From assembly GCA_019745975.1 (NCBI GenBank), contig JAIESQ010000110.1, positions 1 to 56,724 of the forward strand: DNA of 56,724 nt, in the 5' to 3' direction. The notes under the pieces are model-generated. The model did no database searches and was not told the DNA's origin. It was given only the letters and a program-made list of their open reading frames with translations. The stretch's first letter is position 1. Each line of letters begins with the position of its first letter. This document shows positions 30,549 to 53,208 of the stretch, one piece after another. The translations under genes were made by a program, and so were the position numbers. Source of the stretch: Pirellulales bacterium (GTDB taxonomy: Bacteria; Planctomycetota; Planctomycetia; Pirellulales; JAEUIK01).

Positions 30549-30556
30549 ACCGCCAC

Positions 30557-30744
30557 TGCTAGCCCGCATTTCTCACCAGCCATCTGCTACGCGGAGCCCA
30601 AGTCCTTGGATGGCGGCGTCGCCGGGTGCGTCTCGATCCAGAGCGTATGAGCCAATACGCTTCCGGTCGATCCACTCCCTGCTTCTTGCCATCCAAGCAC
30701 TTAACTCCGCTCGCGACGAAGTTGATGAGAAATGCGGGCTAGCA
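30557..30744. repeat. 188-nt imperfect palindrome (MITE-like hairpin)
   Basis: The outer ends are a perfect 19-bp inverted repeat (TGCTAGCCCGCATTTCTCA at 30557-30575, complement at 30726-30744). Inside, a second pair (left AAGTCCTTGGATGGC near 30600, right complement near 30685) and a central hairpin (GCGTAT at 30643 with ATACGC at 30655) continue the symmetry around 30650. The whole unit could fold into one long hairpin and looks like a miniature inverted-repeat element without coding capacity. The remaining 30745-30945 shows no gene. Confidence 0.75.
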
Positions 30745-30945: not shown

Positions 30946-31836
30946 GTGCTAGCAGTGGCGACAACCTACGACGATGCCGGCTCGTCGGCGCCCCCCCGGC
31001 GCGGCTTTCACCCCTTCCTGGCCGCCAGCGAATGGGTCACCGACTTGGGGAGCCTGGTTGTCGACTGGATCGTGGCGCTGGGAAATGTCGCGATGTTCGC
31101 CCTGCGCGTCGTGCGCTGGATGTTCACGCGCTTGCCGCGCCGCGAAACGCTGCTCCCGGCTTTCTACCAGATCGGAGTCCTCAGTTTGCCGGTCGTCGCG
31201 CTCACGGGCACGTTCATCGGCATGGTGCTGGCCGTGCAGAGCTACGATCAGTTTCGCATGCTCAATCTCGAATCGCGCTTGGGGGCGGTCATCAACATGT
31301 CGCTCGTGCGCGAGCTCGGACCGGTGTTGGCCGCCACGATGCTGGCCGGCCGCGTCGGCAGCGCCATGGCGGCTGAGCTGGGCACCATGCGCGTCACGGA
31401 GCAAATCGACGCCCTGGCCAGCATGGGGGCCAACCCGATTCATTACCTGGTCGTGCCACGCTTCCTCGGCTGCCTGATTCTGATTCCGACCTTGACGATC
31501 ATGGCCGACTTCATGGGGATCGTGGGCGGCGCGTTTTTCAGCATCGTGCGGCTGGGAATCGACTCGCACCAGTATTGGCAGAACTCGCAGGAATTCATCG
31601 GCGTGTTCGACGTCTTCGGCGGTACGTTCAAGAGCCTGTTCTTCGGCGCGGCCATCGCCATTTTGAGCTGCCACCGCGGCTTCTATTGCGATCCGGGCGC
31701 CGAAGGGGTGGGCCGGGCAGCCACCGGCGCCTTCGTCACTTCGTTCGTTTTGATTCTGATCCTCGACTTGCAATTGGGCATCCTGCTCAACACGTTGTAT
31801 TACTTCCTCTGGCCCGACGCCGGAAAACTCATCTAG
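30946..31836 (+). CDS. mlaE: MlaE/YrbE-type ABC permease
   Basis: This inner-membrane permease belongs to the MCE phospholipid transport system. The 296-residue protein has the MlaE landmarks [38 protein letters not shown] and [16 protein letters not shown], then [20 protein letters not shown] before the last helix. The N-terminal 30 residues are polar. The start is GTG at 30946, where the polar N-terminus begins. The ATPase and MCE-domain genes follow, giving an mlaE-mlaF-mlaD order. Lipid direction (retrograde or anterograde) cannot be read from sequence. Confidence 0.95.
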
Positions 31837-45263: not shown

Positions 45264-45336
45264 GGGGACGGGAGTCGTTTCCGGCCAACGACAAATCAGA
45301 TCGCGCGATCTAGGACCGGAAACGACTCCCGTCCCC
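45264..45336. repeat. Perfect palindrome of repeat family C (C2)
   Basis: A 21-nt arm starting GGGGACGGGAGTCGTTTCCG (45264-45284) is exactly complementary to the arm at 45316-45336, with a 31-nt interior containing TCGCGCGA. The element recurs at 53136-53208 with small changes and as one arm at 42342. Confidence 0.8.
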
Positions 45337-45369
45337 TTGGGCCAGCCATTCGCGGAACGCGCTGCATTT

Positions 45370-45480
45370 GTTAGCCGCGGAGTTTACTCCGCGCGCTGGC
45401 TCGTGCGACGAAGTTTCGAGCACCCTTCTTTGGAATCGGGGTCGAACCCGCTAGCGCGCGGGATAAATCCCGCGGCTAAC
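45370..45480. repeat. Nested palindrome of repeat family F
   Basis: Two 28-nt arms (45370-45397 and 45453-45480) are inverted with four mismatches. Each arm is itself a hairpin: GCGGAG-TTTA-CTCCGC on the left and GCGGGAT-AA-ATCCCGC on the right. The mismatches between arms are compensated within each arm. With C2 it fills the 399-nt gap between 45247 and 45645, which holds no gene. Confidence 0.8.
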
Positions 45481-45645
45481 AGATTCCGACCCTTCTCCCA
45501 CTCCTTGGAACCGAACCCGGCGGCCCGTAAGATGGTCCGTTTCTACGGATTCGCGCCGCAGCGTCGCATTACCGCGAGGGTCGCGTGCCCGCCAGCAATA
45601 TCCCGGCCTCACTGCGGCCGGCTATAACCAACCCACCACCACGCC

Positions 45646-53135: not shown

Positions 53136-53208
53136 GGGGACGGGAGTCGCTTCCGGGCAAAGACCGAGCGCAAGGGTGCGACGCCGACCGGAAACGACTC
53201 CCGTCTCC
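53136..53208. repeat. Palindrome of repeat family C (C3)
   Basis: Arms at 53136-53156 and 53188-53208 are 21 nt each and complementary except for two positions. The sequence is nearly that of C2. It lies at the start of repeat copy A2. Confidence 0.75.

Follow-up and report, generated by a model that had tools for sequence, protein, structure and literature searches.

A palindrome located between an oxidoreductase gene and mlaE in the DNA of a Pirellulales bacterium is a non-autonomous DNA transposon (MITE) of 176 bp that is bounded by 16-bp terminal inverted repeats (TIRs), duplicates a YTAR target site and is present in 27 near-identical full copies in its own genome. It was analyzed within a stretch of 56,724 nucleotides, referred to below as the window. 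The interior of the element is a core that covaries, prefers one strand and is common to several phyla and several types of ends. In our judgement, the MITE is probably moved in trans by an IS1380 transposase, with the core being selected as a folded strand; both function and transcription are inferred. An earlier note on the window had judged the palindrome similar in size and layout to a MITE or to a structured RNA. Support for the former comes from the full-length copies, the CTAG target duplication and ends shared with IS1380-family transposons, and the evidence points to the latter as well (an interior that shows covariation among phyla and favours one strand).

The element, its insertion sites and its copies

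The palindrome had been placed at 30557-30744, and its inverted arms are exact: perfect 19-bp inverted repeats extend over 30557-30575 and 30726-30744. Perfect 19-bp inverted repeats within 250 bp gave four counts in the window and none in 20 mononucleotide shuffles. When folded as RNA, 30557-30744 reaches -103.7 kcal/mol, compared with -60.3 ± 4.3 kcal/mol for 200 shuffles (z = -10), and the palindrome is therefore real. As boundaries of the transposon these limits are too wide, as the element proper spans 30563-30738 and the remainder is made up of the CTAG duplication and a chance TG/CA pair; other copies have divergent flanks at these outermost bases. The left TIR, CCCGCATTTCTCACCA (30563-30578, plus strand), is of a kind that also flanks IS1380-family transposase genes, and the right TIR (30723-30738, minus strand) matches it in 15/16 positions and carries a G to A change at 30725 relative to the consensus. 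Direct repeats, which the earlier note had advised looking for, are present on both sides of the element: comparison of the flanks of the 27 copies, which diverge outside, defined the CTAG duplication at 30559-30562 and 30739-30742. The perfection of the outer ends, previously taken as a hint of selection, does not by itself show it, since these ends are in part the palindromic CTAG duplication.

The neighbouring genes, all of them plus-strand, were confirmed: a GFO_IDH_MocA oxidoreductase gene lies upstream, and genes for MlaE, an ABC ATPase and MlaD lie downstream. The element contains no transposase gene, and the consensus, translated in six frames together with its flanks, gives at most 61 codons. 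Insertion lengthens a site by 180 bp, and in the family consensus (corresponding to 30559-30742) one plus-strand frame is open from end to end; the reading frame could therefore be retained at some MITE insertion sites. Five positions distinguish the window copy from the family consensus, three of which (30640, 30641 and 30643) lie in the central hairpin (30640-30664, minus strand) and are also found in 3/27 copies of the same genome.

Other inverted repeats were observed in the window. An exact 13-nt pair, CGCCACTGCTAGC and GCTAGCAGTGGCG, at 30551-30563 and 30948-30960, joins the left end of the element to the start of mlaE and may be due to chance. A different hairpin, with 21-nt arms (GGGGACGGGAGTCGTTTCCGG) separated by 31 nt, is present in two copies (45264-45336 and 53136-53208); it has a REP-like look and is unrelated to the MITE. 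The first of these copies adjoins an imperfect inverted repeat of 55 nt with a 31-nt loop (45355-45495).

The search for further copies, also proposed earlier, was performed in the assembly of the same bacterium (6.98 Mb, 204 contigs) and yielded, besides the 27 full-length copies, four partial ones, of which at least three are cut by contig ends. Identical 4-bp flanks, CTAG or CTAA, were found for 22/27 copies, and in the other five the flanks are unequal by a single base each. Two copies are flanked by CTAA on both sides, which supports a 4-bp duplication, and a TA-only (IS630-like) duplication was set aside. The mean pairwise identity of the copies is 96% and two of them are equal to the consensus, which indicates recent spread of the MITE in this genome. 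One copy (C88, locus L011) is inserted in, and splits, a PF13366 gene. After its flanks are joined at one CTAG, the encoded protein matches positions 2-117 of the 117-position PF13366 profile (E 6e-39). This is a single case with flanks joined in silico, and a natural empty allele was not seen. A sequence search of this protein against solved structures gave no match.

Conserved core positions showed no depletion of mutations among the copies of this genome (5 events at 25 conserved positions vs 39 at 120 others, p = 0.48). Purifying selection on the resident copies thus left no sign, and selection, if there is any, acts on the copies that spread. A plasmid or phage element was also considered and rejected: no plasmid match was obtained for the element of this genome, and neither plasmid nor phage matches were obtained for a gammaproteobacterial relative.

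The ends and the IS1380-family transposase

The TIR pattern (with at most one mismatch) was detected in 29/396 genomes of the order, and the reversed TIR, used as a control in the same genomes, gave 0 among the matches listed. In a wider genome collection the pattern is present in at least 119 stretches. Among the matches listed (these at least 119 stretches and 29 loci of the order, L045-L192), 94 inverted TIR pairs were identified, and 70 non-overlapping pairs of those listed are shorter than 420 bp, with identical 4-bp flanks in 43 cases. Two size groups among these 70 short elements comprise 16 elements of 174-178 nt and 13 elements of 238-244 nt. The very short elements at L106 1352-1398 (47 bp) and L163 2382-2443 (62 bp) are nearly two TIRs placed back to back.

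The earlier note had suggested looking for a transposase gene with the same ends, and such an element exists, although none was seen in the assembly of this bacterium. Nannocystis exedens (L186) carries an intact element of 1756 bp that has these ends and encodes an IS1380 transposase, scoring 497.5 bits with PF13701 and 377.8 bits with NF033539 (IS1380). A similar element of N. poenicansa (L154) has an interrupted frame, and the part of it that was searched matched no family. Of the 30 PF13701 loci listed, 6 have TIR pairs (at most 3+3 mismatches) on either side of the transposase gene, compared with 0/300 shuffled loci, and some other PF13701 loci of the order have variant, CCCGGATTATNCA-like ends and YTAR flanks. 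CTAG flanks were found at loci L154, L186 and L209; IS1380 elements duplicate 4 bp at their target.

Matches to PF13701 (E <= 0.001) were more frequent in genomes with the TIR (21/29 vs 107/367 others; Fisher p = 5e-6), and remained so after removal of the genome under study (20/28, p = 1e-5). This count includes weak matches, such as the IS4-like one of that genome, and 8/29 TIR genomes have no PF13701 match. In the assembly of the Pirellulales bacterium only weak, IS4-like matches were found and no IS1380 transposase, and there were no TIR pairs at element distance other than the MITEs; a copy may have been missed in an assembly of 204 contigs, and the parent element has thus been either lost or left unassembled. 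Mobilization by an IS1380 transposase is most likely; that it occurs in trans is inferred, as there are no transposition data.

One core with different ends

Elements of about 176 nt that align with the window element through the interior were found in Gammaproteobacteria, Deltaproteobacteria, Myxococcales, Holophagae, Thermoanaerobaculales, Neomarinimicrobiota and Gemmatimonadetes. A covariance model of the core of about 145 nt without TIRs, R2, was built for the minus strand from 15 training rows. In the window, it identifies 30579-30723 on the minus strand over its full length (94.8 bits, E 1.7e-24), and the next best match has 12.4 bits. In a test on 60 loci, 60 places in 59 loci were matched, each on one strand only, and the 244-nt element of L079 gave no match.

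R2 matches were obtained in 41/392 genomes of the phylum (including the one under study), representing 34/267 genera, and in 14/16 genomes chosen through other loci, 11 of which had supplied training rows. Five of the chosen genomes had not: R2 finds the core 82 times in Acanthopleuribacter pedis KCTC 12899, 23 times in a Planctomycetota record and 12 times in a gammaproteobacterium, but gives no match in either Nannocystis genome. Where at most eight candidates per genome were scored in these surveys, core copy numbers are lower bounds. A known RNA family was sought in Rfam 15 and rejected: no match overlaps the element in the window (E up to 1) or in relatives (7 and 14 loci at E up to 0.5; 14 loci at E up to 1), and only tRNA, tmRNA and weak matches were seen elsewhere in the loci. 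Two core copies lie close to such genes, one beside a below-threshold tmRNA match (L301) and one between two tRNA genes (L294). At L358 158-671 (G475:C201), three cores are arranged in tandem at a spacing of about 184 bp, each between degenerate ends.

The ends around the core are not of one kind. Of 28 loci with enough flank, 26 have inverted repeats (at least 13/16 matches) directly next to the core, as against 0/2000 shuffled controls. In the set of 30 core loci, L298 and L307 have no flanking inverted repeats, and L286 and L287 are cut. CCCG ends were found in 14/30, and three loci (L283, L284 and L296) have ends that are, by eye, variants of these. The remaining 11/30 loci have other inverted repeats, of which that of L311 is perhaps a distant CCCG variant. 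The types of end were confirmed by additional copies from individual genomes and are (i) GGCTCTGTTTGGAAA-like in genomes G479, G513 and G662 and in part of the copies of G653, (ii) GGCTGTGTCTGAAAA in G557, (iii) GGAGTGGTTTCAAAACC and GAGGCGGTTTCATGGCT in G583, with a like end in G660, and (iv) CGCGCGGCGGCTGGGTCG in G783; no clear ends were seen for some core copies of G662, G585 and G653. Several of the non-CCCG ends follow a TA-centred site, and some of them may therefore be distant IS1380 relatives. In the loci searched, none of the other TIR classes could be linked to an autonomous element, and nine PF01609 loci (from 6/12 genomes) had no matching ends. A 2.6-kb pair in G513 was rejected as an autonomous GGCTCTG-type partner: its two ends proved to be separate and to enclose a long open frame, by its look that of a metal ATPase, with one core match. 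The length between the TIRs is near-constant, and TIR and core closely abut.

Compensatory changes in relatives, another of the checks proposed earlier, were found along with the fold: the stems covary across phyla. RNAalifold, applied to an alignment of 18 rows, predicted 32 pairs, 18 of which have both sides changed in some row. For 30 of these 32 pairs, 64 both-side-changed cells were counted vs 18.5 ± 3.5 in shuffled and at most 16 in slid controls, and the R2 training rows gave 58 vs 19.6 ± 3.5 in shuffled ones. Among 37 cores that were not used for training and come from genomes with other ends, 127 both-side changes were counted; shuffled controls gave 42.4 ± 6.3 and slid controls no more than 21. 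A total of 14 pairs have a both-side change in this set, a number reached in 36/500 shuffles. The rows share ancestry and the cells are thus not independent events, and the alignments named A4 and A5 were fitted to R2. For A5, 7/40 fetched loci were left out (L354, L355, L357 and L358 with CCCG-type ends; L342 and L343 with a score and ends equal to those of L341; L339 without clear ends) and four loci from the 30-locus set were added.

Among the most constant features of the core are two internal-loop motifs, a G-U pair of the apical stem (49/60 rows of A4 and 34/37 rows of A5) and the YGAG that follows this pair. In the window, the R2 alignment places the 5' motif, UUCGUCGCGAG (family consensus CGUMGCGAG), at 30710-30720 and the 3' motif, GCGUAGCAGA (family consensus CGCAGYAG), at 30583-30592, both on the minus strand. 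The mismatched internal loops are among the most conserved positions, and the stems switch among several pair types.

The strand described by the model is the more stable one in 28/30 whole elements, 59/60 A4 cores and 37/37 A5 cores, with a mean energy difference of -15.6 (A4) and -14.1 (A5) kcal/mol vs -6.4 kcal/mol for shuffles of the same composition; about 40% of the difference is hence due to base composition. G-U cells outnumber A-C cells by 268 to 93 and 156 to 53 in pairs predicted on the model strand, by 152 to 71 and 84 to 47 in pairs predicted on both strands, and by 152 to 115 and 86 to 73 in pairs predicted on the opposite strand. The excess, which shrinks for the latter, is partly an effect of the choice of pairs. 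Moreover, G-T beats A-C in single-stranded DNA too, and RNA is therefore unproven.

Interpretation and comparison with known systems

The mechanism we propose would start with an IS1380-family DDE transposase, supplied in trans, that moves the MITE into CTAG, CTAA or TTAG sites. The core of about 145 nt folds into a single long, interrupted hairpin, the internal loops of which are conserved and which is topped by an apical hairpin, and it would be selected as a folded single strand, probably as RNA from a transcribed copy, although transcription is only inferred. Selection would act on spreading copies and not on each resident copy, and the fold may either make insertions near genes tolerable or aid mobilization of the element. 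Tentatively, and with somewhat less than even confidence, we suggest that the elements represent an unrecorded class of mobile structured RNA, in which MITEs carry the core with its several conserved internal loops between phyla, the core has switched ends (IS1380-type CCCG, GGCTCTGTTTGGAAA-type, GGAGTGGTTTCAAAACC-type and others) and the RNA is the conserved unit.

The selected structure might instead be DNA, i.e. single-stranded DNA or a cruciform needed for transposition and, for example, bound or exposed in excision or replication. We consider this unlikely, even though the near-constant distance between the TIRs, their close contact with the core and the drift of resident copies all fit selection during mobilization, and single-stranded DNA is also strand-specific. 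With TIRs that are clearly different, such a core would need to work with more than one transposase, or with a single family of great variety; moreover, the two Nannocystis genomes have an IS1380 element with the same TIR and no core match, and the conserved G-U pair looks more RNA-like.

Still less probable is an ordinary MITE, the similarity of which reflects descent and horizontal spread, and the fold of which results from copying of one arm onto the other (quasi-palindrome correction) and has no function. Long hairpins formed by MITEs have been described (PMC4853749 among other sources), and the absence of constraint on conserved positions within the genome of the Pirellulales bacterium agrees with such an origin. 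Arm correction, however, would erase mismatched internal loops, yet it is the loops that stay constant while the stems vary in pair type, and the TIRs differ though the core is the same.

It is very doubtful that the core is a host regulatory RNA or a bidirectional terminator that merely acquired transposon ends. In favour of this possibility, 12/27 copies directly adjoin a called gene end and, among the 23 copies for which both neighbouring genes were called, convergent genes are the commonest arrangement (+- 11, ++ 5, -- 4, -+ 3). The gene calls around the copies are crude, however, and since CTAG holds a TAG stop codon, some contact with gene ends would be expected anyway. The presence of near-identical copies at numerous sites, with one inside a gene, fits recent transposition and not fixed regulation. 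Finally, a one-off foldback without relatives, the outcome that would have refuted the earlier note, has nothing in its favour and is ruled out by the 27 full copies and the relatives in many genomes.

The interiors of MITEs are usually regarded as filler. In this family it is the interior that is conserved, between ends that vary, and a functional RNA cargo of bacterial MITEs thus becomes testable. The core family is abundant in a named strain, A. pedis KCTC 12899, in which transcription, structure and the effect on host genes are measurable, and the R2 covariance model could annotate unexplained repeats in other genomes.

No description of the window TIR or core was recognized in a literature search, from the scope of which most subscription journals were excluded, and a search by the letters of the TIR and the loop motifs returned one unrelated paper only. 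Bacterial MITEs, such as Correia/NEMIS, RUP, Nezha and ERIC, are described as short, non-coding, multi-copy elements with TIRs, target duplications and foldable transcripts. The window element resembles them in being short, non-coding and multi-copy, with TIRs and a target duplication, but differs from the named families in that its interior is one conserved core across phyla and TIR types. To our knowledge, no such shared core exists in these four families (the sequences were not compared). According to one report, Thiomargarita harbours abundant hairpin-forming MITEs, one of which lies inside a group I intron, with ends consisting of a 10-bp duplication and a 19-bp inverted repeat, and with a TATAG repeat (PMC4853749). 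The ability to form hairpins is shared with the window element, whereas the ends reported there do not match (again without a comparison of sequences).

REP/REPIN sequences with RAYT transposases are palindromes of 20-40 bp with a GTAG or CGTC tag (PMC3733652). They are likewise repeated palindromes in genomes of several phyla, but the size and TIRs of the window element do not fit such units. Background was also drawn from PMC4133298, PMC10813416, PMC3542288 and PMC8841776. The IS1380 family has been used as a prokaryotic outgroup of piggyBac. Members of this family (NF033539, PF13701) have CCCGSATTTCTCACCA or CCCGGATTATTCATGA-like TIRs and YTAR flanks, as does the window element; the MITE differs in having no transposase gene, and the two Nannocystis genomes that carry the family lack a core match. 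IStrons, reportedly a group I intron plus an insertion sequence, differ from the window element, which has no group I intron (no Rfam match) and a core of about 145 nt; what the two would have in common is a structured RNA that travels as a DNA transposon.
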